64,000 bases of DNA from Alkalicella caledoniensis (lineage in GTDB: Bacteria > Bacillota > Proteinivoracia > Proteinivoracales > Proteinivoracaceae): NCBI RefSeq assembly GCF_014467015.1, contig NZ_CP058559.1:1-64000 (forward strand). Reading direction: 5' to 3'. Below are positions 33,732 through 63,744 of this stretch, piece by piece. Position numbers and translations under genes: made by a program. How positions within the stretch are numbered: position 1 is the stretch's first letter; each line of letters begins with the position of its first letter. The notes under the pieces were generated by a model. That model saw only the letters and a list, made by a program, of their open reading frames with translations, was not told where the DNA came from and did not search any database.

Positions 33732-33800
33732 GTTCCTCCCTCCGTTTCTGTAATTCTTTGTTCTAATGATCTTGTAATACTGTTCTAATCCTAAATACAT

Positions 33801-36065: not shown

Positions 36066-36082
36066 ACATCCACCCCCTCAAT

Positions 36083-36454: not shown

Positions 36455-36471
36455 TTTATACCTCCTCGAAT

Positions 36472-40812: not shown

Positions 40813-41720
40813 TCTTCTCCCTCCTTAAAAGGTTCTTCGAAAATGTCACAAGTTTCAAAATACTTAGACATTATAACGATAACTGTCACTTGATATACCT
40901 GCTGCTTTTTCGGACTTAGTTGGTTAACTATATTCCAGAATAGCTCATCTCCACTATATTTCTCTTTTTCTTGAAGATAAACTTCATTTAATTTATCTCT
41001 CAGTAAATCCGCAATAAAATCGCTATTATTCGAAAGATAATCGTTTAAGTAAACCACTCTCACAAAAGCACTGTTTAAATACTCTGCTGTAACTTCTGAA
41101 AGATCGTTAAACTTTATCTTCTCATTAAAATCAGGAACTACTAAGCTAGGTTCTTTCTTTAAATCTATCGGTAAACCCATAATATGTGAGATTACTTCAT
41201 TAAGGATAGAAAAATCCATGTTTTTCAAATTGCTCGGGTCAGGCAGAAAACCTACAATTCTAAAAATTTGATCATCCTCTAGTGAAAATACTTCATTTTC
41301 TAAATCTTTAGCAGTAAGAATCTTAGCATCTTTCAACTTATAAGTATCTTTAAGACCTTGAATTAACTGTTCACAATCGGCGTTAACACCTCTATATTTA
41401 TCATTTACAACAAAGTAAAAATTATTAACGGGAGACCACTGCTCGACTAAACCTATAAAATCTGTTTCTATTTTTTTAACGAAATCAACATATGATTTTG
41501 TGATGTCTTCAGGAGCATAAACTTGATAATATGTGCCCTCACTCTTTATATACCCATCATTTTTCCGATCCCCGATGTTTCCCCAAGGTTTAATTGATTG
41601 GAATCCTTCATGCGCATAATACATCGTCTGAGTAAATATATCTTCAAATGCCTGCCCATTTGCTTCATGTATTTTATTTTTGAATAGTATTCTTGCTACA
41701 CTTCGCTCCTGAACATTCAT
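40809..41720 (-). CDS. ABC-3C effector with restriction-endonuclease-like N-terminal domain
   Basis: 303 residues. The N-terminal part has a PD-(D/E)xK-like order: GQAFEDIFTQTM (Glu26), GNIGDRKNDGYI (Asp55) and TYYQVYAPE (Gln66). This nuclease-like domain covers about 130 residues. The C-terminal half (from LNEVISHIMGLPI to MSKYFETCDIFEEP) is the ABC-3C C-terminal domain that docks with the middle component. Expected action: nucleic acid cleavage when the ATPase senses invasion. AGGAGGTTTGATTTA lies before the ATG. First gene of the operon. Confidence 0.75.
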   Translation of the reverse strand: MNVQERSVARILFKNKIHEANGQAFEDIFTQTMYYAHEGFQSIKPWGNIGDRKNDGYIKSEGTYYQVYAPEDITKSYVDFVKKIETDFIGLVEQWSPVNNFYFVVNDKYRGVNADCEQLIQGLKDTYKLKDAKILTAKDLENEVFSLEDDQIFRIVGFLPDPSNLKNMDFSILNEVISHIMGLPIDLKKEPSLVVPDFNEKIKFNDLSEVTAEYLNSAFVRVVYLNDYLSNNSDFIADLLRDKLNEVYLQEKEKYSGDELFWNIVNQLSPKKQQVYQVTVIVIMSKYFETCDIFEEPFKEGEE

Positions 41721-42697: not shown

Positions 42698-45055
42698 TTA
42701 GTTTCGAATTGTAACATCCGTTTGAAGCTTGATGCTGTTATGCCAGAAGTTGTACTCATTTAGCTTCTGGTTTGCTTCATTATATACAGGCTTTGTTCCC
42801 GTTGGATCCTTTATGGTTACCATTAAACAGAACTCTTGACTTGGCACTGAGCCTTCTTGCTGAGATTTCACTTCGATATGATCTCTGTAAAGTCCTCTGA
42901 TATATAAGTACCAGTTCTTATCTTTAGTAAGAAACTTTTTCTGATTTCCATCAGTCATTTCCGATAGATTCACAGCGTATTTTTTCACAGGGTAGTACTT
43001 GTCCCCATATTTTATCAAAAGTCTTTCCTTTAGGGCAAATTCATCAGTATTGCTTCTCATCTTTTTCTTACTGTAATAATCTTCAAGAAGTACATTTTGA
43101 GACCCGTCTCGCCCTACTGGATTTAGAATATTTCGCTTCGTTGTATCTCTATCTTTTTTACCATCATAAGTACCCATCTTAATATCCACATTGGATTGGC
43201 AGTACTCCGCTCGCTGGCTTGAATCCAAAATAGGGTTATAGACTAGGGTCACAACAATCTGCCCAGTGAAATAATCTCCATCAACAAGACAGTCCGGCAT
43301 AGGGAAATCCATCATGTCTATGTACTCCCCTTTTGCAATTTCATCTCTAAGAATCAGCGTTACTTCATGAGGTGAATTGTAAAGTATCTCTCTTACTGGC
43401 TGTGGCTTTCCAAACCCGACTTGATTTACCCTTTCAGTAACAGGAACATTAAGGTTTTCTGAGTAGCTTGCAGAATGAACCATTAATGCTTTGATTAGTA
43501 ATGGATCAAACTCTTCATCCATTTCTTGATGAAGGCCTGCTGCAAGTGCTGCAATCCTTGGAGTTGAATAGCTTGTTCCCACAGATTGACGAACAGCGCC
43601 ATCCAAACCAAATGATTTAACGCCTGTTGTAACCATACTGCCATTCCCATCAGTACCAGCATTCCCACCATAATGTACAATCTCTGGCTTTATAATGTAG
43701 GATGGGCCTCTGCCAATACGTGTAAATGGGGAAGGGTTATCAACCTCTGCAAAGTCTAAAGACGCTTTCTTATGGGCCAGAGAGCCGACCACAATGGAAC
43801 GGACACTATCAGCTCCTTGATGAATCTTTCCCTTTGGATGGCCTTTTCTAAAATTTCCGCAGTTTCCCGCTGACTTACAGATTAGCACCCCATACTGGTC
43901 CTGCAGAGCATCAAGAGCTACTGCAAAATCTGAAAAACTATACTCATCTACTTCGTTAACAACACTAATGGATAAATTCCATACTTTAACCTTTCGATGG
44001 TGGGCCTTTACAGCCTCTTGGATATTTCTAATTAACTCATCCTCTTCAATTCCTTCTTTATCTGTATCTGGATATACACAGGCATCTAGGATTTTGACAC
44101 CCTCAGTTCCTACCCATTCTTGATCTTCTAGATGATCACCATAAACAACCACACCAGATACAAAAGTTCCATGATCTCTTTTTACATATGGTTCTGGATA
44201 AGCTGTATACCTCTCTTCAGTAAGCCATGGTTTTAAATGAGGAATATCTGCCACTCCATTATCTAATACTCCAACTATTGCATATTTTTTCCCTTGTTTA
44301 GGGCTAGAAATATTAATAGTAGCTTCATCTTCTCCCATATCCAATGCAACTGTGTATTTTGGCATTGGCTCTATAGAGAAGATCGCTTCAAAAACTTCAT
44401 TTTGATTAATTGACATAAACTCATCAAGATTAACACCTTTAATATTGTAAACCACGTGACTTGGGGTGTAGTTGGTCCTAGATATCTCCAAGCCTAATTC
44501 TTTTATAGACCTTTCAAAATAGTTCCTTATGGCTGTATTTTGCTCGTAGTTTTGGAAGTCAATAAGTTTAACCTTGTAATCAATAGGCTCTGAGCTTTCA
44601 CTTTTATCAATAATCGGTTTAAAATCCGAAATACTATCAATAGCTGATAGCGCATGAGCATAGCGTTGTGTATTATTAAGGCGTTCGATAATCTTCTCTA
44701 CTTCCCGAGAGTCATCCACCTTGATAATTAATTCGTCTTCTTCCGCTAAACCAAGTACATTATTATCTGTACCTGTTCTAAAAAGATTGCTAACTTCACG
44801 CCTATGGGTCTTAGCCGTAGCATCATCAATAATTTTAGTCTTGAAAACAACAGGAATTAACGAATTTTCTTTTTCTTTTTTCAACACTTCAGCTTTAAAT
44901 TCTTGAACAACATCTACAAAGGCTCTAGATTTAATCATCAGCTCTTCTGGACTCAAGACGAACTTAGGAGGATCTCCGCCTCCACCAGCTTCCACCCTCA
45001 TGTTATCGACTTCTCTTTTAGCAAAAAACTTAATTGGTAATCTTTCATCTGCCAT
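42698..45055 (-). CDS. ietS: IetS-like subtilisin-family serine protease
   Basis: 785 residues. The S8 catalytic triad is visible: VGVLDNGVAD (Asp265), KRDHGTFVSGV (His295) and VGTSYSTPRIAALAAG (Ser495), with the oxyanion Asn in CKSAGNCG (Asn398). There is no signal peptide, so it acts in the cytoplasm. A 240-residue N-terminal region and a 270-residue C-terminal beta-rich region flank the protease. It follows an AAA ATPase gene by 20 bases. This pair matches IetAS, first known from Ti plasmid stability and incompatibility and later shown to act against phage. Confidence 0.85.
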   Translation of the reverse strand: MADERLPIKFFAKREVDNMRVEAGGGGDPPKFVLSPEELMIKSRAFVDVVQEFKAEVLKKEKENSLIPVVFKTKIIDDATAKTHRREVSNLFRTGTDNNVLGLAEEDELIIKVDDSREVEKIIERLNNTQRYAHALSAIDSISDFKPIIDKSESSEPIDYKVKLIDFQNYEQNTAIRNYFERSIKELGLEISRTNYTPSHVVYNIKGVNLDEFMSINQNEVFEAIFSIEPMPKYTVALDMGEDEATINISSPKQGKKYAIVGVLDNGVADIPHLKPWLTEERYTAYPEPYVKRDHGTFVSGVVVYGDHLEDQEWVGTEGVKILDACVYPDTDKEGIEEDELIRNIQEAVKAHHRKVKVWNLSISVVNEVDEYSFSDFAVALDALQDQYGVLICKSAGNCGNFRKGHPKGKIHQGADSVRSIVVGSLAHKKASLDFAEVDNPSPFTRIGRGPSYIIKPEIVHYGGNAGTDGNGSMVTTGVKSFGLDGAVRQSVGTSYSTPRIAALAAGLHQEMDEEFDPLLIKALMVHSASYSENLNVPVTERVNQVGFGKPQPVREILYNSPHEVTLILRDEIAKGEYIDMMDFPMPDCLVDGDYFTGQIVVTLVYNPILDSSQRAEYCQSNVDIKMGTYDGKKDRDTTKRNILNPVGRDGSQNVLLEDYYSKKKMRSNTDEFALKERLLIKYGDKYYPVKKYAVNLSEMTDGNQKKFLTKDKNWYLYIRGLYRDHIEVKSQQEGSVPSQEFCLMVTIKDPTGTKPVYNEANQKLNEYNFWHNSIKLQTDVTIRN

Positions 45056-45075: not shown

Positions 45076-46170
45076 TTATTCTGGCGAACTTGCTACATCT
45101 CTCACCTTCCGTAATGAATAATTGAAATTGTCACTAACTTCCTTTTGAGTCACGCCATATTGCAATAAATACTTGATAAATTCATTCTCGCTTATAATCT
45201 TATGATTCCGATATAAATAAACTTCTTGAAGCATATCCCAGTTATGTGTTGCTCCCTTTTTGTTGATGATAGATTTCTTTATGGTATTGTTTACGACTGT
45301 CTTTACATCCGCATGGCTAATGCCTTCAAAGGCCGCTGCCAACATTTCTAGTTTTTTATCGTTCTCAACCACATTGCTTTTTAGACTTTTTACATGAAGT
45401 TTAATCAGCTGCATAATCTCTTCTTTATTAGGTTTTTCCAAAGTAATAATCTTAGAGAATCTTCTCCACACAGCAGGGTCCAACAGTTCATGATGATTAG
45501 TTGCTGCAATAAGGATACTGTTTTGACTAAAATCATCTATATTTTGAAGTAGGCTATTCACAACCCTTTTTAATTCCCCTAGTTCATGCTTATCATCTCT
45601 TAATTTTGCAACAACATCAAATTCATCTAGGAACAAGATGCAGTCTCTCTTCGAAGCATAGTCAAAGATTTTTCTTATGTTCTTTGCTGTACTACCAAGA
45701 AGCGATGATACTAGACCATCTAATCTTACTGTTACAAGTGGTAATCCTGTTTTATATGCAATAAATCTCGCCACCGTTGTTTTCCCACATCCCGGTGGAC
45801 CGTATAAAAGTAAAGAGCTAACCATTTCAATCCCAGCACGTAGTATTTCATCTCTCTCCTCGTAGCCATGAATGAACTCGTCAATCTCTTCATGTATATA
45901 AGACTTCAAAATAGGTGCTTCAAATGATTTATCCGGTATAAAAATATCCACCATATCCATACGACTCTCCGTATCTACTGGCTTGGTGGAGAAATCATCT
46001 AAAGATGCCATCCTCGTTTTCTTATTCACTAAAAGAGATCGTATTTTCTTGGCAAGAGAAGCATCTCCAGATTTCTCTAAGTTTTCAGCGAGAACCTGAG
46101 CATAATTATAAACCTTCTCTTTATCGCCAATCATTCCACCTTCTATAATTTTAACAATCTCTGTATACAT
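45076..46170 (-). CDS. ietA: IetA-like AAA-family ATPase
   Basis: About 364 residues from the ATG at 46170, nine bases past GGAGG; an in-frame Met at 46215 has no site. Walker A LLYGPPGCGKTTVARFIA, Walker B CILFLDEFDVVA, sensor ATNHHELLDPAVWRRF and the arginine finger region are all of the FtsH/Spastin-like AAA class. A short N-terminal helical domain precedes. Together with the subtilase it forms the IetAS system, where the ATPase is thought to restrain or target the protease. The upstream region contains 21-bp repeats. Confidence 0.87.
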   Translation of the reverse strand: MYTEIVKIIEGGMIGDKEKVYNYAQVLAENLEKSGDASLAKKIRSLLVNKKTRMASLDDFSTKPVDTESRMDMVDIFIPDKSFEAPILKSYIHEEIDEFIHGYEERDEILRAGIEMVSSLLLYGPPGCGKTTVARFIAYKTGLPLVTVRLDGLVSSLLGSTAKNIRKIFDYASKRDCILFLDEFDVVAKLRDDKHELGELKRVVNSLLQNIDDFSQNSILIAATNHHELLDPAVWRRFSKIITLEKPNKEEIMQLIKLHVKSLKSNVVENDKKLEMLAAAFEGISHADVKTVVNNTIKKSIINKKGATHNWDMLQEVYLYRNHKIISENEFIKYLLQYGVTQKEVSDNFNYSLRKVRDVASSPE

Positions 46171-46249
46171 TTCGCATTCCTCCAGACAGTAATATTTTAA
46201 CCCACACAGATACATTTGTCAATGTATTTGTTATTTTTATTCCCATTTT

Positions 46250-46416: not shown

Positions 46417-49400
46417 TTAAATTGAGATGTATCTTTGATGGCGATTTCCAGGATCTTCAGGAATTGTATACTTTAATCTTTTCATTTTCATTAAAGGCTT
46501 TATAACTGATTTTCTAAAATAGCTATAGGATATTTGCTTCCTCTCATTCATGAAGGCGTGCAGCTCTTTATACTGTTTAGGTTCTTTACAATACTCAAGC
46601 ATAGCTTTTACATCTGGCCCATTTAGAAAATCTAGCTTCTTAGCTTTTCTTATTTTCTCTCTCCGTGTATCAAGTAACTTCTGAAATTCTTCGTACCTGT
46701 AATCTATGGTCCACTCAATACCTAAGTGAAGTTGGTAAACTATACCCCCATCTTTATAAATCCACGCTTCCTTAATAACCCTATCAAATATGGATGCCTC
46801 AAAATACATAAACTTTTCAGGATCTATTCCTTCCATGCTATTGATTCTTCCTTCATCTACTTTTTCTATCTCTTTTATAAACCATGCTAGCTCCTGCCCA
46901 AGCTCATCCACCTTAACCTCACGATCCGTGTATTCCTTCAGTTTGCTTTGTAACGCCACTATTTTCTCGGTCAATTCATCTACCTTCTTTGAATCCTGGC
47001 CCTTCTTATTAAGCTCTTGATCTACTACCTTATACAAAGTTTGATTCAGGTTTTCTATCTGCATCTTAATATCGTCTTTATCTCTTTGTTCTTCTTTGCT
47101 AAGCTTAAGGGAATTAATATACTTCATTACTTTAGACTGAAATGCACTACCATGATTTTTTATGTGTTGCAGGGTCTTCATGAAATGAAGCTCTAAATAC
47201 TTCTGGTTTAATTGATGGGTGTCACATTTGTCTACTAAAAAACCTTTGTGGGCCCTATTACAAATCCAACTATGTTTTTCTATCGAACCCTCAATAACTC
47301 TTCTATGCCCAATGGGTGAACCGCACTCACTACAATTTAATAACCCTTCAAACGATTTATTTTTTCTTCCATCTTTGGGGTATTTCATTTTATTTCGATT
47401 GACAAATTTCTCTGCTCGTTTTTCAAGAATCTCTTGTACCCTTTCCCAGTCATCACTTGAAACAATGGCTTCATGGCGGTTTTCAATTAAGTACTGTGGT
47501 AACTCACCCCTATTTGGCGCCTTCTTATCTGATAGGGTGTCTTTGGTATAGGTCTTTTGATATAAATAATTTCCTCGATAAACTTCACTCATTACCATAA
47601 ATTTTACGGTCTGAAGCCACCACTGGCCATTACCAGTTGATGTTTTAACTCCCTTAAAATTAAGGTCCTTAGCTATTTGATTGTAGCTTTTTCCGTCAAG
47701 AATATCTTGATACATTCCTCTAATAACCTCAGCTTCTTCCTCTACTATTTCCCACTCTCCATTTTTTCCTGCTCTGTAGCCATAGGGAGTAATACTTGGA
47801 TTAACAATTCCCCTTTCAGCATATCGCCTTTTCCCCCATGACATAGCCTCCCCAGTATTTATGCTCTCTTCCTGTGCGATGCTTCCAAAGATTGAAATCA
47901 TCAAATCACTTTTTTCATCTTTTGTATGAATGCATTCTTTCTCAAAGTATACATAGACTGGGTTTGGTAGGTTTTTGAGCATACGGATTTTTTCAAGGCA
48001 ATCCAGAGAGTTTCGGCTAAACCTTGAAATTGATTTTGTTAATATCAAATCTACATTGCCCGCTTTGCATTCATCCATTAGCTTTAGAAACTCATTTCTA
48101 TTTCTGAGGGATTTTCCTGATATTCCTTCATCAGCATATATCCCGGCATATTCATATTGGGGATCTTTAAGAATAAGGTAGGTATAGTAGGCCACTTGGG
48201 TTTTCAAACTAACCATTTGCTCTTCTGAGTCAGTTGAAATTCTACAATAAGCCGCAGTCTTTAATTTAGGCTTATCGACCCTAGGAAGCAGATCCTTACG
48301 ATCTCTTAAAAGTAGATTAGCATTCAAACTTTTATTTAAACTCTTCATCACATAATCCTTCTGCCCTGGCTCTATTTTGATGATGTCAGAATATGCGTTA
48401 AGACTCAAATCAACATCCTCCTTCCCCTTAGATTTTTTCACGTCAGCTTTATCTTTATTAGGGCCATTATCCCTTTCAAAGAAATAAAGCTCTTCACTTT
48501 TACTACCTTCTATTTTTTTAGCAGGCTCAAATGTCATGTCATTCTTCGGTTCTACTTTATCTAATTTGGCCTGCTTTTCTTTATAAATTGCTTTTAACTT
48601 CTCTGCATCTCCCATCTCCGTCTGAGTACCATCAATCCAGCGAACAGTATAGTCCTCAGGTGTATAAATAATTAACTCTGAAATCCATGCCCGCATTATT
48701 TCAATGGTTACATTTGAAAGGAATAACTCCAGTGATTTATTTTCTTTAAGCCAAGTGATAGCATTTACTCTAAGCCCTCTATCATCCTCAATCTTTGCTA
48801 CCTTGTTTTCAAAGTCCCGGTATTCCTTTTCCATCCGATCAATGTCTATGGATGTATCAGGAATTTCTGAAAGTGCTAGCTTTCTTTTAACAATTTCAAT
48901 CTCTGTAATGTATTTGAGGCGATGAAATTCAAAATGGTCATTCTGGTTAATTACTTGAAGCTCCTTCAAAAGCTCTGTCACTACTGCATCACAAGTTAAA
49001 TCATACTTTGTCTGCATGGCCCTTAGCATCATCTCTCGAAGCATATGTTTTTTATAGGTAATCGAATCACAGATTTTCATTACCCTGGGTGCGCACCGGT
49101 AATTTTGAAGTTCACGCTTATATTCGCAGCTGAACTTGTATCCACACCTACCACACTCTAATCTTCCCGATAATGAGTTATAGGCTTTTGGTTTTACCGG
49201 ACCACGCTTTTGAGTACTTCCTTCTATTTTCTTTTGAACCAGATTAAATAAATCGGTGCTAATTATTGCTTCATGAGAATTCTCTATAAACACCAAATCT
49301 CGCTGCCCATACTGTACTTTATTTGTAAACAAATCCCTTGTTATCTCTCTAGCAAGTTTGTTCCCTGTGTAGGTCACATTTTTAAGGACAGCTTTCACAA

Positions 49401-50148
49401 GTTGGGATGACCATATATCTTTTCCCTTAATAGTTTTGATCTTCTTACCACTTAAGTTTCTGCCAATATCCGTAAAAGAAAGCCCCTCAAGATACAGATT
49501 AAAGATCATCTTGACCACCTCTGCTTCTTCGTCAATGATCTCAAGGGTCTGATCATCTCCCTCTCCCACCACTTTATAGCCTAGTAATCGCCCGAACTTT
49601 GGACTCCCTTTAAGAAACTTCTTTTCATACCCCCACATGGTTGAATTGGAGATGCTTTCAATTTCCTCCTGGGCCAATGCAGCATAGGTACTTAATAGAA
49701 ATTTATTATAATCCGTCGAGGTGTCTATCTTTTCTTTCTCAAAGTAGATTCCTACCTCTAGCTCTTTTAAGCGATTGACTAAGTCTATCAGTTCTTTGGA
49801 GTTTCGAGAAAACCTTGAAATGTTCTTTGTAAGAATCAGGTCAATCTTACCTTCTTCCGCATGACGAATTAATCTTTGAAATCCCCTCCTTCTACTAACT
49901 GAGGCTCCACTTACTCCATTGTCATAATAAATGCCTACAAATCGCCAATTGGGTTTACTCTTAATATAATGTGTATAGTGATGGACCTGATTCTCAAGAG
50001 ACCTTAATTGCTCTTGTTCTTTTAAACTTACTCGACAATAAGCTGCCACTTTAATTCCAGCCTCATTACTTTCAAATGGACTTTGATGCCTTTCGTTAAT
50101 GGGATTCCAAAGGGTCTGGACCCATAATCGTTTATCATTATCTTTCAA
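46417..50148 (-). CDS. Tandem fusion of two large serine recombinases
   Basis: 1243 residues with two complete serine recombinases in one chain. First unit: catalytic Ser in VAAYCRVSLKEQE (about residue 40), LTKNISRFSRNSKEL, a recombinase domain and a zinc ribbon (CGRCGYKFSC). Second unit: AAYCRISTDSEEQ (about residue 645), LTKSISRFSRNSLDC, then a zinc ribbon (CSECGSPIG) and coiled coil. A charged linker of about 110 residues joins them (SEELYFFERDNGPNKDK within). Large serine recombinases act as tetramers on att sites; a covalent dimer is unusual. The gene is the last of three adjacent recombinase genes between the prophage lysis module and the IetAS operon. Confidence 0.88.
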   Translation of the reverse strand: MKDNDKRLWVQTLWNPINERHQSPFESNEAGIKVAAYCRVSLKEQEQLRSLENQVHHYTHYIKSKPNWRFVGIYYDNGVSGASVSRRRGFQRLIRHAEEGKIDLILTKNISRFSRNSKELIDLVNRLKELEVGIYFEKEKIDTSTDYNKFLLSTYAALAQEEIESISNSTMWGYEKKFLKGSPKFGRLLGYKVVGEGDDQTLEIIDEEAEVVKMIFNLYLEGLSFTDIGRNLSGKKIKTIKGKDIWSSQLVKAVLKNVTYTGNKLAREITRDLFTNKVQYGQRDLVFIENSHEAIISTDLFNLVQKKIEGSTQKRGPVKPKAYNSLSGRLECGRCGYKFSCEYKRELQNYRCAPRVMKICDSITYKKHMLREMMLRAMQTKYDLTCDAVVTELLKELQVINQNDHFEFHRLKYITEIEIVKRKLALSEIPDTSIDIDRMEKEYRDFENKVAKIEDDRGLRVNAITWLKENKSLELFLSNVTIEIMRAWISELIIYTPEDYTVRWIDGTQTEMGDAEKLKAIYKEKQAKLDKVEPKNDMTFEPAKKIEGSKSEELYFFERDNGPNKDKADVKKSKGKEDVDLSLNAYSDIIKIEPGQKDYVMKSLNKSLNANLLLRDRKDLLPRVDKPKLKTAAYCRISTDSEEQMVSLKTQVAYYTYLILKDPQYEYAGIYADEGISGKSLRNRNEFLKLMDECKAGNVDLILTKSISRFSRNSLDCLEKIRMLKNLPNPVYVYFEKECIHTKDEKSDLMISIFGSIAQEESINTGEAMSWGKRRYAERGIVNPSITPYGYRAGKNGEWEIVEEEAEVIRGMYQDILDGKSYNQIAKDLNFKGVKTSTGNGQWWLQTVKFMVMSEVYRGNYLYQKTYTKDTLSDKKAPNRGELPQYLIENRHEAIVSSDDWERVQEILEKRAEKFVNRNKMKYPKDGRKNKSFEGLLNCSECGSPIGHRRVIEGSIEKHSWICNRAHKGFLVDKCDTHQLNQKYLELHFMKTLQHIKNHGSAFQSKVMKYINSLKLSKEEQRDKDDIKMQIENLNQTLYKVVDQELNKKGQDSKKVDELTEKIVALQSKLKEYTDREVKVDELGQELAWFIKEIEKVDEGRINSMEGIDPEKFMYFEASIFDRVIKEAWIYKDGGIVYQLHLGIEWTIDYRYEEFQKLLDTRREKIRKAKKLDFLNGPDVKAMLEYCKEPKQYKELHAFMNERKQISYSYFRKSVIKPLMKMKRLKYTIPEDPGNRHQRYISI

Positions 50149-50283
50149 TAAAAAAACTCCCTTCTTCAGTTGTGTTCTACCTATAAATAGATAGCTATAG
50201 GTATGTTCACTCTGTACCAGAGATATTGCAAGTTCTTTCTCTAGTTTTGAAAGGAGTTTTTTATATTTTGTTTGATTTATTCC

Positions 50284-51948
50284 TTATTTGGGTCTTTTAG
50301 CAAGGATTTTGCGCTTAACCCCACACTTAAATATAAATTCTACTATGTGATTTTTATATACTGTCACCCGTTCGATGGTTTTTACAAAGGCTTTTGAGTC
50401 AAATTCATCATCCGGTTTTTCTATCAAGTGAAGGTATTCAAGAAGCTTATCTAGGTTCTTCTTTAGATAAATACTCTCTTGTTTGTTTTTATAAAGGCCT
50501 TCATGCTCCATCTGTAGAATTTCCTGCTCATAAATTAGGTGTCTAAGATTTGCTTCATATAGTGGATCATGGGTCGTCATTTCTCTTTCAGATAGCTGAG
50601 TGATCTGGTCAGATACCCTGTCAATTTGTTCTTCCAATTCTTTAAGTCTAGCCTCTTCAGATTCAGTTAAAGCACATTCTTCTATGGCTTTATTGGCGTC
50701 CGCCATGACTCTCCCTATATTTTTCTGCATGTCATATAGTAGTTTCATAAAGCCTATCTCAAGGGCTGTTTCCCAAACATACTGGCTATTACAATCCTGA
50801 AACTCTGGATCCCTTCTGCAAGCTGCTCTACAATGCCATGTGGTGAAATAATATTTTTCCCCTTTTTTTGAAGATGTCATTCTCCTCCTAGTGACAGGCC
50901 TTCCACACTCACCGCAAAACAGTCGGTTTGAAAATGGTGAGGTTCCGCTATAACACATCCGGTATTTCTCATCCGGGTCTCGGAGCATTTTATTCCTTCT
51001 GTCCAGCTCCTCCTGAACCGCATACCAATCTTCCTCAGGAATTATGGCTGGGTGGGTATTCCTTATAAAATACTGGGGCTGATGGTCCTTGTTTCTCACC
51101 CTTTTATGGGTAAGAAAATCTACCGTGACCGATTTTTGTGCCAAGCAGTGGCCCATATACTTTTCATTTTTTAAAATTTTATAAACAGCATCACTGGTCC
51201 AGGTTTTATTTCCTCTAGCGGTTTTAAGACCATCTTTCGTGAGTCCTTTGGCAATGGTTGGTGTCCCTTTTCCATCTAGCAGCTCCTGGAAGATGCGTCT
51301 TACAATTTCAGCTTGTTCTTCATCAATGAATATCTGCCCTTCTTCATCGGTATCATAGCCTAAAAAGTAGGTGGTTGGGATATGAGGTTTTCCTTGAGAA
51401 AATCGTTTTTGAACTCCCCACTTTGTGTTTTCACTAATGGACCTTGATTCTTCCTGAGCCATAGATGAAAGAATGGTTAAAAAGAGCTCACTTTTACTGT
51501 CTAATGTGTCCAGGTTTTCCTTTTCAAAATACACGCCACAGGGCTTTGGTAGGTTCTTCAGCATTCGAACCGTTGACAAGCAGTCCAGTGTATTTCTGGC
51601 AAATCGACTAATGGATTTGGTAATAATGTAGTCAATCTTACCAGCCTTTGCATCTTCAATCATTTCTAAAAATCCTGCTCGATTTTTCGTTGAGGTTCCA
51701 GTAATTCCCTCATCAGTGTAAACCTTATAAAGTTCCCATGCCGGATTTTTTTGAATGTAGTCTGTGTAATATTCAACTTGAAGCTCATAACTGCCGCTTT
51801 GATGTTCTTCCATAGTGGATACCCTGGCATAAGCAGCGATTTTCTTTTTCTGTCCATCAACATGTTCTGCATTTCGATTAGTTCGAACCCTTGCAGGAAT
51901 AACCTTAACTCTTGATGTCCCACCAGGTCTAGATTGGTTTGTGATCAT
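50284..51948 (-). CDS. Large serine recombinase
   Basis: 554 residues. The N-terminal resolvase domain has the catalytic Ser in IAAYARVSTMEEHQ and the Arg in ITKSISRFARNTLDC, followed by the recombinase domain (GLKTARGNKTWTSDAVYKIL), a zinc ribbon (LFCGECGRPVTRRRM) and a coiled coil. This is the phage-integrase type that joins attP and attB and, with a directionality factor, reverses the reaction. Its start overlaps the stop of the upstream recombinase by one base. Translation of all is thus linked. Confidence 0.93.
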   Translation of the reverse strand: MITNQSRPGGTSRVKVIPARVRTNRNAEHVDGQKKKIAAYARVSTMEEHQSGSYELQVEYYTDYIQKNPAWELYKVYTDEGITGTSTKNRAGFLEMIEDAKAGKIDYIITKSISRFARNTLDCLSTVRMLKNLPKPCGVYFEKENLDTLDSKSELFLTILSSMAQEESRSISENTKWGVQKRFSQGKPHIPTTYFLGYDTDEEGQIFIDEEQAEIVRRIFQELLDGKGTPTIAKGLTKDGLKTARGNKTWTSDAVYKILKNEKYMGHCLAQKSVTVDFLTHKRVRNKDHQPQYFIRNTHPAIIPEEDWYAVQEELDRRNKMLRDPDEKYRMCYSGTSPFSNRLFCGECGRPVTRRRMTSSKKGEKYYFTTWHCRAACRRDPEFQDCNSQYVWETALEIGFMKLLYDMQKNIGRVMADANKAIEECALTESEEARLKELEEQIDRVSDQITQLSEREMTTHDPLYEANLRHLIYEQEILQMEHEGLYKNKQESIYLKKNLDKLLEYLHLIEKPDDEFDSKAFVKTIERVTVYKNHIVEFIFKCGVKRKILAKRPK

Positions 51949-53600
51949 TATGTCTCCTCTCCTTCCTCGATTTCTACAGTGGTTTCATCTCCGTTGATCC
52001 AGGAGATGGTAAATAAAAAAGGCGATACCGCTTTTATACGGACCACCCATCCTCTGAGAAATTCAATATTATTTTTTGTTACTTGTAATTCTTTTGCTGG
52101 CGAGGTTTTCTCCTTGATCTCAGCCAGTCTTGATAGTGCTTTTTTCCGGTAGATATCATCAGCATCTACTAACTGCCACCAAGACTCTTTTATAACTATC
52201 TGGTTTTCTACTTCCTTTCTTTTCTCTGTAAACTCTTTTGGGTCTTCACTTTTAAAAATGGCGTTGTTCTCAGCTAAGAGTGCACGTTCAAGGGTAAGAC
52301 GTAGTTGATTTTGTTGAGCAGCTCTAATAGAAACAGCACTCTGTAGTTCTTTTATAAGATTTATAATTTGACGCCTTCCTTGACCTATTGCACTTTCATA
52401 TCGCTGGTCAAAAGCTTTAACCATGGCTTTTAAAATTCTTTCCTCCTTTATCCCTTTCATTTTACAAAGCTGATTACTTATGGTTTGATGACCGCACCTC
52501 CAAGTCACAACTTCTCTACATACATATCGGTGAAGGTTATAGCCACATTCTCCACAAACCAGTCTCCCCGATAGAGGATAAGACTTTTTCTTACCTCTTT
52601 TTAAGTTTTGCTTATTATTAGCCATACGTTTTTGAACTGCCTCAAATGTTTTACGGTCAATGATTGGTTCGTGGTTATTCTTTATTAAAAACTGGCTTCT
52701 CTCTCCATTATTTTTTACTGACTCATGACTTAAATGATCTTTGGTATAGGTCTTTTGGCAAAGCACATCGCCAGTATAACGTTCATTGCTCAGCATGTCC
52801 CGTATAGCTATTGCAGTCCATTCTTTTTTTCCATTTGCCTTTTTATATCCTTTTCCTATGAAAGACTGGGCAATCTGTCTAAATCCCAATCCCTCTAAAT
52901 AAAGCTGAAAAGCTTCTCTAACAATCTTCGCTTCTTCTTCAACCACAATCCAGGCCCTATTTTTCTCCTTCTTATATCCAAGTATCCGACAGAAGATACC
53001 TTCGCCTTGTTCAAATCGTTTTGAATTGGCCCAGGTAATGTTTGATGAGGTGCTTCTGCTTTCTTCCTGAGCCACTGCTGAAAGCATGGTTAAAATAAAT
53101 TCACTTTGCATACTACTTGTATCAAGTTGCTCTTTCTCGAATACCACATTTACACCTACATTGCTTAAGGTTCTGATGGTATTTAAGGTGTCAGTTACAT
53201 TTCTAGCAAACCGAGATATGGATTTGCAAAGGATCGTATCAATCTTTCCTTCTATAGCATCCCTTACCATTTTGTTAAACCCTGTCCGTTTCTCTATTTG
53301 GGTTCCCGTCTTTCCCCTGTCGGAGTAAATGCCTGCAAACTGCCAATGTGGATTGGAGCGGATATAGTTTGTGTAATGTATCATTTGATTTTCAAGGGAC
53401 TCTTCTTGAGGGTCCGATAATGAACTTACACGGCAGTAGCTGGCTACTTTAGGTCTTTCTGGTTGTACTTTAAGCGCTGAAGTTCCTGCCTCCCCATATT
53501 GGAGTTTGCTTATAACCGTTACTGTATGTCCATCTGAATAGTCTTTAAAATTAAAATTATTTTGAGTTAATGAGTTTTGCATGTTTTCGCCTCCTTTCAT
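51948..53600 (-). CDS. Large serine recombinase
   Basis: 550 residues, same layout: catalytic Ser in VASYCRVSSLSDPQ, Arg in LCKSISRFARNVTD, zinc ribbon LVCGECGYNLHRY with CGHQTISNQLC, and a C-terminal helical part ending in a short beta region. GGAGGCGAAA precedes the inner Met (MQNSLTQNNFNF at 53582), so that Met may be the real start. It is the first of the recombinase genes and follows the prophage amidase across a terminator. Confidence 0.92.
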   Translation of the reverse strand: MKGGENMQNSLTQNNFNFKDYSDGHTVTVISKLQYGEAGTSALKVQPERPKVASYCRVSSLSDPQEESLENQMIHYTNYIRSNPHWQFAGIYSDRGKTGTQIEKRTGFNKMVRDAIEGKIDTILCKSISRFARNVTDTLNTIRTLSNVGVNVVFEKEQLDTSSMQSEFILTMLSAVAQEESRSTSSNITWANSKRFEQGEGIFCRILGYKKEKNRAWIVVEEEAKIVREAFQLYLEGLGFRQIAQSFIGKGYKKANGKKEWTAIAIRDMLSNERYTGDVLCQKTYTKDHLSHESVKNNGERSQFLIKNNHEPIIDRKTFEAVQKRMANNKQNLKRGKKKSYPLSGRLVCGECGYNLHRYVCREVVTWRCGHQTISNQLCKMKGIKEERILKAMVKAFDQRYESAIGQGRRQIINLIKELQSAVSIRAAQQNQLRLTLERALLAENNAIFKSEDPKEFTEKRKEVENQIVIKESWWQLVDADDIYRKKALSRLAEIKEKTSPAKELQVTKNNIEFLRGWVVRIKAVSPFLFTISWINGDETTVEIEEGEET

Positions 53601-53824: not shown

Positions 53825-54529
53825 TTAATCGTATTTCATATAAGCATCAAATCCTGCCTTTTTAAGACGATTCATTAAAGCTTCTGCATTCTCTTTTTTA
53901 CCAAAGGCACCTACCTGAACCCGATAGAACTTTTGAGTAGTTTTTGATTCAGGCTCAGGGTTGACCTCTACACCTTTACTCACCAGATCTAGAATGTCTT
54001 TATCTGCCCAAGTCATAATGCCGTCCTTCTCAGCCATGTTATTTTTAAGAATGGTCCTACCTAAGAGTACACATTCTTTTCCACCTTTTATAACCGGCCT
54101 ATTACCAGACTTATCTTGAGTGATTAAATGATAATTCCATTTCACCCAATTCGGAATAATAGGCCCATTTTGATAATAGCGTTTAGCTGATGCTTTAATT
54201 TCTACAATATCTCCGGCTTCTAAATCATCTTTATCCTCTACCGCTTTAGCATTGTTTAATGCTTTCTTTACTGCCGCTCTAAAGGTATCCATACTCTCTC
54301 CATGCTTTGGAAACCAGTGCATCGGGTCCGCATGATTGCTGGCTATGCCCTGTCTATGCCCTTCAGCATGACCGATGATATCTTTTTCAGTAAGACCATA
54401 CTCCCTGCAAAGAAATACACATAAGGCTACTGCATTTTTCCAGGCCGCCCTAAAATATGCTTCATTCTTTTTCACACCATAACCCACCATATTAGCGCCG
54501 TCAGAATAAGAAAACCCACCCGGTTCACA
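53825..54529 (-). CDS. Prophage N-acetylmuramoyl-L-alanine amidase, 3' exon
   Basis: Continues the amidase after the group II intron: exon 2 opens CEPGGFSYSDGANMVGYG, which follows HIGFEI of exon 1 as expected for the amidase_2 core. Later come HAEGHRQGIASNHADPMHWF (zinc ligand His and catalytic residues). A middle region of about 80 residues with an SH3-like sequence follows, then a C-terminal SPOR domain (FYRVQVGAFGKKENAEALM). The enzyme cuts peptidoglycan to release phage. It is active only if the intron splices. Confidence 0.88.
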   Translation of the reverse strand, partial: CEPGGFSYSDGANMVGYGVKKNEAYFRAAWKNAVALCVFLCREYGLTEKDIIGHAEGHRQGIASNHADPMHWFPKHGESMDTFRAAVKKALNNAKAVEDKDDLEAGDIVEIKASAKRYYQNGPIIPNWVKWNYHLITQDKSGNRPVIKGGKECVLLGRTILKNNMAEKDGIMTWADKDILDLVSKGVEVNPEPESKTTQKFYRVQVGAFGKKENAEALMNRLKKAGFDAYMKYD

Positions 54530-54590
54530 GTAGAGTAGGAAAGCGCCGCCTTATTGTATTTCTACAACAGGTTTGCGCAGACCCCTCCCC

Positions 54591-54624
54591 GAACCGTGCT
54601 TACACCTCTCGATGTACACGGCTC
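54591..54624 (-). ncRNA. Group II intron domain V
   Basis: 34-base hairpin GAGCCGTGTAC, GAGA tetraloop region, GTAAGCACGGTTC, with the AGC catalytic triad in its base. Confidence 0.75.
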
Positions 54625-54650
54625 TCCATTGTTACTCAATTATTCAAAAC

Positions 54651-56444
54651 TCAATTTCTGTGGATTTCTTTGTGACAATCTCGACAGACCACCATAGTTT
54701 TTCGGTTTCGCGCTATTAGGTATTTCTCCCATGGAGCTTTTCCCTTCAAGTCTTTGAGCCTTTTAACATGGTGTATTTCATAGTGTGTCGCTTCGGTTGT
54801 TCCACACAACTTACAAACTCTTGCTTTTAATCCATCTTCAAAAGGGTTACGTTTATGACTATAGATAACTGCGTCATTACGTATTTTGTCACTAAATGAA
54901 CTTTGCCCTTTACAATCAGAATATTTTGCGAAATAGAGTCGTTTTTCACCTTTAGCCGTCTTATATGGTACACACCATTTCCCTTGCCCATCTTGATGCG
55001 AGCGAATAATTTGGGCAATGCTGCTTTTACGCTTTGCTGCAAGTGTTTTTAAGCAACTATACTCCATAAGGTAAGCAAAGTAATTTAAGTTGTTAAAATT
55101 ACTTGCCATTCGGTAGTAGTTGCATATTCCCCGCAATTCTGCGTTGTAGGTTGAAACAATCTCGTATTCCGTGATTTGTAGCAAGCTTGGGCGGTGGACA
55201 AAGCGATACTTACCGTTAATCTGTTTCACTATACCTTTATCTAACAGAAAACGTTCAATTTTATCTTTGAATGGAACCGTGAGTTCCACTTTGTTGTTAA
55301 GCGTTCTTTTGGTATACCCATTTCCACCCTGTTTGATTTGACTGTTACGCCTTACACAAACATCATAGCCTAGAAATCTTGCTTTGTTGTGGCTGTGAGT
55401 AATAAGTGTTTTTTCTTCACTGAGTTCCATTTTCAGCGTATTTCTGATAAATGTTTTCAGTTCCGATTTTACCCATTCACAGTCAGATTTACTTCCGATA
55501 ACCCCGATAAGGAAATCATCTGCATAACGCACATATTTAATTTTCTTATCCTCTTGTAATTTACTAGGGGTTGAAAGCTGTTTCGCTCTAGTTTGTCGTA
55601 ATTCAGCAAGTAGTGCCGGCTTTTGGTGCTCATCCGCATTTTCTAACTTCTTTCTCAAGCGGACTGCTTTACTTCGTAGTCTTGAATATTCCGGTGTTCT
55701 CTTGCCTCGGGGTAAGGGCTTGTCAAATTTAGCTTTTAGCTGTTCAACAAACATGTCCAACTCGTGCAAGTATATATTGGCTAGTACAGGTGAAATTATT
55801 CCACCTTGGGGCGTCCCACTATATGTACTGTGGTATCGCCAATCTTCCATATATCCTGCCTTTAAGAATTTGCGAATAAGTTGGTTGAAACGCGCGTCCT
55901 TGATTTTCTTTCCTATCAATTCAGCGAGCACATTGTGATTAATGTTATCAAAACAGCCTTTGATATCACCTTCGACGAACCATTTCACTCCATTGAATCC
56001 TTTTGATACCATTCCTAGAGCGGTATGACAGCTTCTGTTAGGTCTGAAGCCATGGGAAGTATCACAAAATGTAGGTTCATAAATAGCTTCTAGAATCATT
56101 CTGATTACTTCCTGAACCAATTTATCAGTGAATGTCGGAAGTCCTAAAGGACGTAATTTATTACTTTGCTTTTTTGCAATATACGTCCTACGTACAGGCT
56201 TAGGTGTATAGGTTCCATCTGTTAGACTTTGGATAATAAGCTCTATCTTTTCCTCGCTGAAGCCATCTGCTGTGTCATTATCGACACCAGGTGTTGCTGC
56301 GCCACTATTGGCATACAGATTTTTGTAAGCAAGAAAATAGATGTCTGGTCTTTGCAGGTAACGGTAAACCCGCGTGAAAATTTCATTCTTGTTGCGATTT
56401 GAGTTTTGATTCATTCTCTCCAAAATCTCAATTGTTGGTTTCAT
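54651..56444 (-). CDS. ltrA: Group II intron reverse transcriptase/maturase with HNH domain
   Basis: 597 residues. Reverse transcriptase motifs: RRTYIAKKQSNKLRPLGLPT, CDTSHGFRPNRSCHTAL, EGDIKGCFDNINH, GTPQGGIISPVLANIYL and the catalytic YADD in KYVRYADDFLIG. A maturase X domain follows, then an HNH endonuclease with zinc-binding cysteines (CKLCGTTEATHYEIHHVKR, VVCRDCHKEIH). All motifs are intact, so the intron may still move by retrohoming. The protein also helps the intron fold and splice. It lies in domain IV. Confidence 0.95.
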   Translation of the reverse strand: MKPTIEILERMNQNSNRNKNEIFTRVYRYLQRPDIYFLAYKNLYANSGAATPGVDNDTADGFSEEKIELIIQSLTDGTYTPKPVRRTYIAKKQSNKLRPLGLPTFTDKLVQEVIRMILEAIYEPTFCDTSHGFRPNRSCHTALGMVSKGFNGVKWFVEGDIKGCFDNINHNVLAELIGKKIKDARFNQLIRKFLKAGYMEDWRYHSTYSGTPQGGIISPVLANIYLHELDMFVEQLKAKFDKPLPRGKRTPEYSRLRSKAVRLRKKLENADEHQKPALLAELRQTRAKQLSTPSKLQEDKKIKYVRYADDFLIGVIGSKSDCEWVKSELKTFIRNTLKMELSEEKTLITHSHNKARFLGYDVCVRRNSQIKQGGNGYTKRTLNNKVELTVPFKDKIERFLLDKGIVKQINGKYRFVHRPSLLQITEYEIVSTYNAELRGICNYYRMASNFNNLNYFAYLMEYSCLKTLAAKRKSSIAQIIRSHQDGQGKWCVPYKTAKGEKRLYFAKYSDCKGQSSFSDKIRNDAVIYSHKRNPFEDGLKARVCKLCGTTEATHYEIHHVKRLKDLKGKAPWEKYLIARNRKTMVVCRDCHKEIHRN

Positions 56445-57000
56445 TGAGGTATTCCTCCCTAATCAATATAAATTTTGGCGCGTAACAACTGCTTCCCTTC
56501 GCCATGTAAGGGTCATTACCCCTCGCGGACTACTATGGAAGCTCCGTACCCATGCAGAATATTCAAGCCCTTTAGCTATAGCCGTTTCCGGCGTTTCTGT
56601 TTAGGGTATCCCCAGTTAACAATGCCAATAGGTATGTGGATTTTCGGATACGTTTTCGTTTCTTTACCATTGGTTCTCCAACAGGTCATGTGAACTAAAT
56701 GATAACCAATTGCGCGAAATCTGTACGCAATTACATTCACATCAGAGGTTACAGGCAAATTTCCTCTGTCCGGGCATTAACAGAAACTCGAAACTTACGT
56801 TCAACAAACCCAGTTTTATCCTCATATCCACTTGTCATTGCGGTTCAGTCGCATCTGATTGCCTTTAGATGACTTACCGCTTTCCTGCCATGCTATGTTC
56901 CCGTGTCAGCTTTCGCCTTTCGGTTGGGCAGGTTGACAATAGCGTTATCTTACTATGCGGTACCTTAAACCGCTGTTGACATTGCCCTATCTGGGCGCAC

Positions 57001-57291
57001 TATCTCAAAACCGATGTGGGTATTATTCGCATCTCCTCCTGCATGCCAGCCTCTGTGATTCCAGGGAAGGTACTGCCAGATTTCCTTATCATCTAAAAAG
57101 GCATGGACACAAACCTGCCTGTTAATCTCTCCCGCCCTAAAGGACTTATTCCACCTGCTAAACCAAGCACCTGCCATCACTCCAGGTGTTGCTGTGGAAT
57201 GGACCATAATGCCTTTAGGAGTAATTTTTCGATTAGCTGTATAGCAGTCGTTTCTTGTCATGAATTTGGTTTTTAGATTACTTAGTGCCAT
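57001..57291 (-). CDS. Prophage N-acetylmuramoyl-L-alanine amidase, 5' exon
   Basis: About 97 residues from the ATG at 57291, which follows GGAGGGGATAAG; it overlaps the end of the holin gene. MVHSTATPG carries the first zinc His, and GWHAGGDANNTHIGFEI the next part of the amidase_2 fold. Exon 1 ends at the I of HIGFEI, where the intron begins. Without splicing the frame runs on for 17 residues and stops. Confidence 0.88.
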
Positions 57292-57694
57292 CCTTATCCC
57301 CTCCACTTTTTAGTTGTTCTAAGACATCTACCAGTTTCTTAGGTATCGGTAGTCCAAGCCTTGTAGCATTTTCAATGATGCTAATTCCTTCATTGGACAT
57401 ATAAAAGAAAATAACTGCAGTTCGAATGGCACTGCCATCACCTATGATATTTTGGTCAATGATATGGGCCACTCCTACTAAAGAAAAAATCACCACTTTC
57501 TTAAAAATTCCTCTAGCACCTACATCGCTGGACAGGTGTTTTTCAATGATGGCACACATGACTCCTAAGATGTAGTCAATGACAACGAAAGCTATTAGAG
57601 CATATAAAAACCCATCGTAACCTCCAAGAAACCAGCCCAGCCATCCGCCGATGGCAGCAAATATTATCTGAACAACATTCCAAATCTCTCTCAT
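57278..57694 (-). CDS. Phage holin (phage_holin_4 family)
   Basis: 138 residues with three to four hydrophobic helices: IIFAAIGGWLGWFLGG, FLYALIAFVVIDYILGVMCA and a later one beginning GIFKKVVIFSLVGVAHIID, with NEGISIIENATRLGLPIPK conserved in the toxin-secretion/lysis holin family. It makes the pore that lets the amidase reach the wall. It overlaps the amidase by 14 bases. Confidence 0.88.
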   Translation of the reverse strand: MREIWNVVQIIFAAIGGWLGWFLGGYDGFLYALIAFVVIDYILGVMCAIIEKHLSSDVGARGIFKKVVIFSLVGVAHIIDQNIIGDGSAIRTAVIFFYMSNEGISIIENATRLGLPIPKKLVDVLEQLKSGGDKDGTK

Positions 57695-57730
57695 GTTCTT
57701 TCCCTCACTTTCATAAAAGTTTTATCTATT

Positions 57731-57757
57731 AAAAAAACGCCCGGTGAAGGACGTCAT
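57731..57757 (-). terminator. Terminator between tail and lysis genes
   Basis: ACGTCC and GGGCGT pair around TTCACC with a mismatch, followed by seven T on the minus strand. Weak stem. Confidence 0.4.
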
Positions 57758-57780
57758 ATCATTCTCTTAAGTTGTTGTAT

Positions 57781-58851
57781 TTAGTAAGGAGCGTAATAGA
57801 CAAACCCGTTCCCTTTCACGTAGAAGCCATCTCCCGGTACATAAATAGCACCACCAAACATATTGCCGTGGGGTGTTAGAGCAAAGCCTGGCTGTTCTAC
57901 TCCTTCCCAATAAATCCCGTCTGCTGAAGCATAAAGCATATTTTGAGTAAAGAGAGCATATTTTCCCCAGTCCTTCATCCATACAATATTTTGAGGATTT
58001 GGCGCTCTGTTATCTGCTAAATCTCCATAGTGGGATAGGTTGGTCTCAATAAGCTGGGTGGCACTATCATTTAGGACACACAGATTAACACTAAAATTCC
58101 CCGGAGATCCATGGTATCTAAAGCGGTGAACAAAAAGTTTGTTATTAACAGACCGAATGTACATGTAGCGATGATCCAGTGGATCTTCTGGAATGGTAGT
58201 AGTCCATGCCCAAGGTGTGGCAGAGCTTGCTACAGCTATGGATTTATCTCCTCCAACCACCCCTACAAAGTTTCCTTTATGGGCAGTCATATACTTAAAA
58301 ATCGGTACAGAATTTCCATCAGAGCCTGTAAGGGTCCATTCTGTTCTTTCCGTAAGGGAATCAAAGCTGTAATAGACAGGTGACTTATACCACCACCAGC
58401 TTACAACCCCTACATTCCTTGTAATGTCGTAAGCCCCTGTTTCCATATGGTTTTGGGCACCTCTACAAAATCCTGCATTATGCCAGGTGATACCGTCAAA
58501 GGAAGCGATGATGTTAGCAAGCCCTACGATTCTAGCTAAAAAAACACCATCTCCTGCCCATAGGATTTCTGGTATTCCGTGATTCCACCAAGGCACATCG
58601 GCGATGGTCCACTGCTTTGTTTGATGGTTGAAATATGACATCCTGGGGTTCTGTGCTCTATAAACTGCTATTTGGGCATTTCCGTTATCAAATACATCAA
58701 TCCTTGTTGCACTGCCGGTTTGAGGGTAGCCAAAATGATGATAATAGCGTTTTTCCCACTTTAATGTTGGGATGGGAAGAATAAGATTTCCCCTACCACC
58801 AAAGGCTGTCCATATGGCTAGTGTATTATTAAATCTTTCATGATAGGTCAC
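57781..58851 (-). CDS. Putative prophage tail-tip protein, beta-propeller-like
   Basis: 356 residues starting at GTG after GGGGGAG. Rich in Trp, Tyr, Gly and Asn, with spaced short units such as ILWAGDGVFLAR, TAHKGNFVGVVGG, VNNKLFVHRF and WGKYALFTQNMLYASADG, each resembling a blade of a beta-propeller. The place after the tail endopeptidase gene and before the holin is where receptor-binding proteins lie in siphoviruses. No family recognised; function inferred from position. Confidence 0.55.
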   Translation of the reverse strand: MTYHERFNNTLAIWTAFGGRGNLILPIPTLKWEKRYYHHFGYPQTGSATRIDVFDNGNAQIAVYRAQNPRMSYFNHQTKQWTIADVPWWNHGIPEILWAGDGVFLARIVGLANIIASFDGITWHNAGFCRGAQNHMETGAYDITRNVGVVSWWWYKSPVYYSFDSLTERTEWTLTGSDGNSVPIFKYMTAHKGNFVGVVGGDKSIAVASSATPWAWTTTIPEDPLDHRYMYIRSVNNKLFVHRFRYHGSPGNFSVNLCVLNDSATQLIETNLSHYGDLADNRAPNPQNIVWMKDWGKYALFTQNMLYASADGIYWEGVEQPGFALTPHGNMFGGAIYVPGDGFYVKGNGFVYYAPY

Positions 58852-58852
58852 T

Positions 58853-60250
58853 TTACTCCCCCTCCCATACCTTTTCTATTGCTGTAATTCTGCCACTACT
58901 ATCTGTGGTAAAGTTGTATTTTGCCTTTTTCCCATCAGCGTAAACAATATCAAAACTTGTCATATCCACTATCAGAGTGGATACTTCTTTTAATAAAAGT
59001 TCTGAAAATATTCCTTCGAGAGTGATGCTGGTCATACGGCCTGAATCATCTAAGGTAAAACTGTAATCTGCATGGTACTGATGGGTGCTGCCCCTCTCCA
59101 CCTCATAGGTGACATGAATCATATTTTCTTCAATACTAATGTTTTTTACTATGGTATAAGAGACTCCCAAATCATCTAGCTGGGTTCTAATACCACCAAT
59201 GGATTCATCCACCTCTTGAAAGTTTTCATCGACATTCTCTTTAAATTCCTCAATGTACTGGTCTAGTGTATAAAGAGGTTTTCCCAGTTCCACTTTGGTA
59301 TTTTGAGACCTCAAGATATCTTTTTCTATGGAGATCACTTTAATTTTAAAATCTACTCCAAGAAGCTTATGCTTTACGGTTACGGTGTCTCCAATGCTTA
59401 CTTTTAAAAGCGGCTTATAATCCTCATACTCCTTGGTGTGTTCAAGCTGGATAAAATCCACTTGATAATTAACTGCAAAGCCTGCATGTTCATAAAGGTA
59501 GTTCTCCGCCATTTGTCTAAGGCTTTCTTCATCCTTGGCTTCTTTAAAGTCCACTCTCTTGATGAGTTTAAAATCCGGATAGTCTGCGCCTGACCACTGG
59601 GCATTAATAAGATATTTTTCTGGTAGGGTTAGTCCTTCTGCCCCAACAGGATAAATTCCCGTTAGGACTTCGTCGGCACTGAGCTTCTCGTTAATCCCCG
59701 TGATGTTTTTTCCATAGGCTACAGTAACCCCTTTATCATTTAAGTGTCTTCCATTAATCTTTATATGAAAATTATCTCTGAAAAGCTCACTCTTCCACCT
59801 ATTAGCCACCATAAACATGGCCTGGGAAGCGGACCTTCTAATAAAATACTGGGTGTTTAATGCTTCAATATCACTTTCAATGGTATAGATATCTGTTAAG
59901 CCTGCTTCATCTAAAACCATCTCCATAGCATCAATGGCCTTTTTATCTACTGCCCTTCGATCTTCGATGAAATAATGATTGAGATCATAAAAGATATGCC
60001 TTCCACTAACCCTTAGAAGGTTACTAGGTATGTCTTTTTCTACATGATAAATCCTGAAAAGCTGTCCATCTGCTTTGATAATATTAAAAGGCTTTAGATG
60101 CTTTTTCTTCTCTAAATGCAGGGGATAGGAGAGCTTAATTTCATAAATTCCGTTTAGCTTTTCTAGGGTTTTGCACTCTGAGCACTTATCTAAAATACCT
60201 AGCCCATTGGTTGAGAAGTTACTTTCCTTCTTGTCATAAACCGTAATCAT
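58853..60250 (-). CDS. Phage tail endopeptidase/tail-spike-type protein (Tal-like)
   Basis: About 465 residues from the ATG at 60250, which overlaps the Dit stop by one base (TAATG). MITVYDKKESNFSTNGLG, LNGIYEIKLSYPL, NIIKADGQLFRIYHVEK and VSGRHIFYDLNHYFIED are the N-terminal part of the phage minor structural/prophage tail family. This forms the baseplate hub below the Dit ring. A coiled-coil section (IEEFKENVDENFQEVDESI) and a small beta domain end the protein. No peptidase motif was seen, so the activity is open. Confidence 0.82.
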   Translation of the reverse strand: MITVYDKKESNFSTNGLGILDKCSECKTLEKLNGIYEIKLSYPLHLEKKKHLKPFNIIKADGQLFRIYHVEKDIPSNLLRVSGRHIFYDLNHYFIEDRRAVDKKAIDAMEMVLDEAGLTDIYTIESDIEALNTQYFIRRSASQAMFMVANRWKSELFRDNFHIKINGRHLNDKGVTVAYGKNITGINEKLSADEVLTGIYPVGAEGLTLPEKYLINAQWSGADYPDFKLIKRVDFKEAKDEESLRQMAENYLYEHAGFAVNYQVDFIQLEHTKEYEDYKPLLKVSIGDTVTVKHKLLGVDFKIKVISIEKDILRSQNTKVELGKPLYTLDQYIEEFKENVDENFQEVDESIGGIRTQLDDLGVSYTIVKNISIEENMIHVTYEVERGSTHQYHADYSFTLDDSGRMTSITLEGIFSELLLKEVSTLIVDMTSFDIVYADGKKAKYNFTTDSSGRITAIEKVWEGE

Positions 60251-63677: not shown

Positions 63678-63744
63678 ATCCCTCACCTCCCCTTGGCATA
63701 AAATTTAGTTAACATGGGCAATAAAAAAACACCCATTTTAGGTG

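Follow-up and report, generated by a model that had tools for sequence, protein, structure and literature searches.

Why would a prophage carry four large serine recombinases (LSRs) in three neighbouring genes, two of them within a single protein, and on which DNA do they act? The question is raised by the window, a stretch of 64,000 nucleotides from Alkalicella caledoniensis (NZ_CP058559.1, positions 1 to 64,000; genome G000), in which an earlier note had described two LSR genes overlapping by one base and a third gene encoding two complete recombinases in tandem. ORF coordinates, Pfam domains and the cysteines of the C half bear out this description, including the 1 bp shared by the ORFs of A and B (Table 1). 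Pfam recognises a Resolvase, a Recombinase and a zinc ribbon domain in each of A and B, and in CD, which has a TTG start and no internal stop, two Resolvase (PF00239) and two Recombinase (PF07508) domains as well as one scored zinc ribbon, located in D. The ribbon of C obtains no Pfam score; its CxxC pair and two later cysteines are invariant among homologues. All four units hence show the three domains of an LSR, C with regard to the ribbon through conserved cysteines only. Three further matches to the resolvase domain lie elsewhere in the genome, in the region 987-990 kb and at 3651 kb.

Table 1. Features of the recombinase module, the prophage, the cargo and the element end (window positions)
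Feature	Position	Strand	Basis
Prophage lysis and tail genes upstream of A	53825..63686	(-)	PHROGs; group II intron RT by Pfam
Recombinase A, first LSR of the module, 550 aa	51948..53600	(-)	ORF, Pfam; A clade 100/100
Recombinase B, second LSR, 554 aa	50284..51948	(-)	ORF, Pfam; B clade 100/100
Recombinase CD, fusion of two LSRs, 1243 aa	46417..50148	(-)	ORF, Pfam, fused homologues
C half, residues 1 to ~530	48559..50148	(-)	C clade 100/98; active-site residues kept
CD linker, residues ~531-626, predicted disordered	48271..48558	(-)	AlphaFold pLDDT <50 over most of it
D half, residues ~627-1243, extra helical C-terminal segment	46417..48270	(-)	D clade 99/97; structure model
Cargo IetA (AAA ATPase)	45076..46215	(-)	PADLOC 5.5e-141
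Cargo IetS (subtilase)	42698..45055	(-)	PADLOC IetS, 1140 bits
Cargo protein, 206 aa	41960..42580	(-)	no Pfam or PADLOC match
Cargo PDC-M68A (ABC-3C CTD10)	40809..41720	(-)	PADLOC 2.5e-11, Pfam PF20275
Cargo PDC-M68B (DUF2326)	38843..40579	(-)	PADLOC 5.9e-92
CD-side element end (arm) ATTTTTATCCATCTCGTATCAAGGCG, last base 38441	38441..38466	(-)	conserved in 27 aligned ends
Displaced 3' part of galU, codon ~97 on, joined to the arm	37844..38440	(-)	PF00483, galU alignments
galE-like epimerase, outside the element	36849..37847	(-)	Pfam Epimerase; follows displaced galU in contig L048 too

The AlphaFold model of CD (trimmed to 1200 aa, 10-row alignment, mean pLDDT 70.6) comprises two LSR-like halves separated by a linker of low confidence; with a pTM of only 0.38, the placement of the halves relative to each other carries no meaning. 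Structure and sequence searches matched both halves to known serine integrases by fold or by sequence family. Two motifs stand out by strong conservation, NQND.FEF.RLK in the C-terminal helical region of the C half (alignment A2, positions 378-395) and KI.PGQ in the linker.

We found the module A-B-CD, with CD fused, at 34-66% identity in complete genomes, metagenome-assembled genomes (MAGs), viral contigs and a phage assigned to Ca. Heliusvirales. In a different genus of the same family, one genome encodes a full-length fused CD at 50% identity, and scans of public collections added Youngiibacter fragilis, several MAGs, viral contigs and the phage PV036459.1, the record classified as Ca. Heliusvirales, where the module shows 34-60% identity. 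The archaeal labels of two of the MAG contigs (L048 and L051) are probably binning errors. With only three carriers in a sample of 398 genomes of the phylum, the module is uncommon. The order A-B-CD is constant in all intact modules. Some copies of CD homologues are broken by frameshifts or stops, and in no homologue found were C and D present as two intact separate genes. A stop codon lost in one strain, or homologues that always occur as separate genes, would, according to the earlier note, have refuted its reading of the fusion; the former was not encountered, and the homologues proved to be fused over their full length. That the fusion is an accident or a sequencing artefact of one strain is, in our judgement, next to impossible, since CD is fused in every intact module, including those of complete genomes and those on the deepest branches of C and D, and we rejected this explanation. 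The fusion is real and, judged from the sequences, old.

A tree built from 71 recombinase domains resolves each of A, B, C and D as one clade (99-100% bootstrap support) and unites A with C to the exclusion of the other classes (99/93); as the tree is unrooted, the order of the duplications cannot be read from it. Those LSR pairs of related phages that were placed in it fall into clades separate from all four. The catalytic Tyr, Arg, Ser, Asp and second Arg are retained in 12 of 12 sequences per class, and the Arg of the SRF motif in 11 of 12 in class A. One could imagine two independent systems, in which A and B integrate the phage and CD serves excision, inversion or resolution, and the fact that related phages manage on an unfused LSR pair is compatible with such a division. 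We regard it as improbable, because the order A-B-CD is kept in all intact modules and A groups with C and not with B.

Upstream of A lies a set of genes for an endolysin, a holin, tail proteins, Dit and a tape measure protein, together with a group II intron. The endolysin is split (53825-57306): its parts at 56965-57306 and 53825-54490 match one 341-aa endolysin of genome G296, and the intron with its reverse transcriptase (54651-56444) lies between them.

On the other side, beyond CD, the element ends in a conserved arm of about 25 bp (TTTATCC.TC.CG.ATCA.GGCG), whose last base lies inside galU. Contig L048 has the identical junction between arm and galU, and most contigs that reach far enough show the same kind of arm joined to another sequence. 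Among 27 aligned ends, positions -19, -8, -7, -4, -3 and -1 are invariant and the arm reaches up to 2 bits per position; the joined side holds almost no information and lacks a fixed dinucleotide core across these ends. The spacing of the arm, whose inner block covers -11 to -1 and whose outer TTATC lies near -20, seems to resemble that of an LSR half-site. When two arm patterns were searched against 2.9 million viral contigs, only eight matched; six of them carry CD, and the other two end about 1.4 kb or less from the arm.

A search for the opposite end with the inverted arm gave no acceptable match. The best one, at C1:115300, reads as the frame of an IS110-type transposase and was rejected. 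GAGTGATATATGTA was also dismissed as a right arm, as it is part of a repeated phage promoter-like element, CTTGCTAT followed after about 12 nucleotides by GAGTGATATATGTA. This element occurs in G000 at C1:75335 and C1:72986 and upstream of A in many related phages, in many of them exactly, and is itself a site to which arms are joined.

The interval between CD and the arm measures 2-8 kb and usually codes for known or candidate defence proteins; for many of the matches the family is a candidate one and its role in defence unproven. Besides IetAS and PDC-M68 in the window, the slot contains a Bunzi-like BnzB and an ApeA-type HEPN protein in L048, PDC-M69 in L044, viperin in L050, AbiEi/AbiEii in L039, a Schlafen/AlbA protein with only weak PADLOC scores in L042, and a cytosine methylase with a SIR2-domain protein in PV036459. 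Since the element ends beyond them, IetAS and PDC-M68 lie inside it, and A-B-CD plausibly moves them together with the prophage. The suggestion of the earlier note that the prophage and the adjoining defence genes are cut out as one unit is thus plausible for these two systems but does not extend to the caspase-like gene and PDC-S32, which lie outside position 38441. The latter genes (35091-36065 and 33801-34565) belong to a group of defence-like genes at 33288-36484, which an IS21 element at 30593-32823 adjoins.

We regard it as fairly probable that A-B-CD serves a family of temperate phages, the Ca. Heliusvirales record among them, as the module for integration and excision, with prophage and cargo forming one element. 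Four intact active sites, a conserved module, a precise conserved end, a cargo slot and arrays in which arms are joined to older recombinase genes are observed directly. Four co-evolving LSRs, of which C and D would have been covalently joined before the family split, may act on the phage end beyond the cargo slot, so that prophage and cargo would move as a single element. The four subunits could form mixed tetramers, within which C-D would be a built-in heterodimer covering two unlike half-sites. Against this reading stands that neither a circular form nor an attP or a right-hand end came to light.

To which sequences is the arm joined? We collected 31 ends, the 27 aligned ones and four found separately. 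Because two pairs of ends in G296 may each go back to the copying of one event, the independent events number fewer than 31, and as the contigs were found via these recombinases, the sample favours arrays. More than half of the ends (17 of 31) adjoin the 3' portion of a B or D gene from another module, and the homologous positions at which they do so recur. Five adjoin other parts of related phages, namely the promoter (three ends), a helicase and a tail-like gene (one each, both read by eye). The remaining nine adjoin other DNA: galU three times, the leader ACGTGAGTAT three times, once followed by an apparent sugar transferase, and, at one end each, ugd (PF03720), a SEC-C protein and a membrane protein read as a flippase, without a Pfam match. 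All readable joined genes are directed away from the element.

The joins to recombinase genes are best seen in G296, a single-contig genome, and in G417 of the same genus, where arrays of five to seven remnants include defence-like genes. In both, a prophage related to that of the window is followed by tandem units of a 3' piece of B or D, CD, cargo and arm. Remnants of one genome have their uninterrupted counterparts in the other, about 94% identical and twice part of a working module, and the break points are therefore exact. In at least three places of these genomes, a module type termed X combines one arm type with one join site, located after the Asp codon of SRFARNTLD. At a second position, AA/YACNAARTGG (the slash marks the join), four ends lie at exactly the same homologous base of B or D. 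The remnant units retain defence-like genes (PDC-S05 and PDC-M69B/capP), and successive prophages appear to displace each other, leaving fossils of CD plus defence genes behind. A related phage (IMGVR_UViG_3300002219_000599, 43226-48325) possesses four separate, adjacent short LSRs and a different arm, joined to the B gene of a B-CD remnant.

These joins suggest a history for the arrays. On the simplest reading, a newcomer would recombine within B or D of a resident prophage, the duplicated phage genome would be lost afterwards, two similar genomes collapsing by homologous recombination, and a 3' recombinase piece, the defence cargo and the old end would stay in the chromosome. That the phage integrates into the recombinase genes of a relative, disables it and evicts its genome, each round leaving CD, cargo and end as a further layer of a defence island, is a tentative reading, to which we give somewhat less than an even chance. 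No resident 5' remnants were seen at the recombinase-gene joins, so that displacement needs an extra step. Sister copies of the recombinase targets lack the last two bases of the arm; hence, a 2-bp LSR core of the classical kind cannot be made out at these sites.

Both observations would also follow if the phage had integrated in the classical way elsewhere, for instance at a capsule-operon leader (CG or GG directly followed by ACGTGAGTAT), and the arm had later been re-cut by the recombinases with loss of the neighbouring DNA up to a variable point in a resident recombinase gene, galU or ugd, which would leave a precise arm next to unrelated 3' gene pieces. Three ends do lie on the one leader sequence, whose unoccupied copies are preceded by CG in G000 (C1:122752) and by GG in G296 (1134216), matching the arm of the respective genome, and a 2-bp core could hold at this site. 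The ends in a resident helicase, in promoters and in a tail-like gene fit such deletions as well. Random loss would not, though, place end points again and again at exactly homologous bases of B and D, and we consider deletion unlikely, albeit the least unlikely of the alternatives.

The joins to galU bear on a third explanation. Integrases that target tRNA genes keep the target gene whole by swapping 3' ends. Similarly, the phage might carry the 3' part of its target beside attP, so that the gene, here galU, stays whole after integration. In G000 and G002, the sole 5' part of galU is found in a complete galU past the other side of the prophage, and a second 3' part at the arm. Had the phage simply inserted into a single galU, this complete copy would stay unexplained; a swap of 3' ends would account for it and for the missing fixed core. 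Identity windows along the galU pieces, at DNA and protein level, gave no clear answer on chimerism, and the far side of the G296 prophage lacks a recombinase copy. Our analysis thus leaves such gene-restoring integration rather unlikely, slightly more so than deletion. An epimerase at the right flank of the G296 prophage was discarded as the original target, since no 3' copy was found on the left. The complete galU of G000 lies to the right of the window (C1:95256-111528). A group II intron with the 5' end GTGCGAC splits it at codon ~70 and itself seems to have received an insertion of about 13 kb; at C1:100234-103457 there are three adjacent tyrosine recombinase genes, resembling a RIT or Tn554-like trio.

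As a conserved natural fusion in which both active sites are intact, CD would offer a ready-made heterodimer with which to study the choice of half-sites and direction by LSR subunits, and it might also become a tool. The fixed slot beside CD provides a simple landmark for new defence systems. The remnant arrays record the order in which prophages succeeded one another, and they offer a concrete way for defence genes to stay behind when prophages are lost. If the eviction of residents by newcomers is the true reading, prophage turnover builds the defence island, and its layers are legible as a record of past prophages.

The enzyme family is known; a fused four-LSR module, a cargo slot and joins to sister recombinase genes were not described in the literature searched. 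New here are the ends joined to B or D pieces of other modules and the remnant arrays with defence-like genes. The paper on the Heliusviridae (PMC9226167) makes no mention of an integrase or recombinase. Our search for fused or multiple LSRs yielded only the triplets of serine integrases of streptococcal ICEs, reported in 2016 (PMC4701971). According to the parts of that report considered here, the triplets resemble A-B-CD in being adjacent genes of the same orientation at the end of the element, with classes that cluster by position, and in inserting inside genes, including traG of another element. They differ in comprising three separate genes, whereas the third gene of A-B-CD is a double LSR, and in belonging to ICEs and not to phages; in these parts no fusion was found, and direct repeats of 2-8 bp are reported, of which none is shown for A-B-CD. 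With such triplets, and with pairs being usual in related phages, the premise of the earlier note that an element normally carries one LSR was too strong. The pairs of Ca. Heliusvirales, Streptococcus Javan and Gardnerella phages (PV036460, MK448825, MW387018 and others) are likewise adjacent and sit just downstream of holin and endolysin, as does A-B-CD in temperate phages, but consist of two unfused LSRs, or three in a Gardnerella phage. The SPbeta integrase YokA and those of phiC31, Bxb1 and Listeria, with solved structures, share fold or sequence family with the halves of CD, with one LSR per protein and phage. In SCCmec, two different LSRs, CcrA and CcrB, act together, and elements pile up at one site with accessory genes. 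In contrast to A-B-CD, they are encoded by two separate genes, do not belong to a phage and use one fixed site in rlmH.
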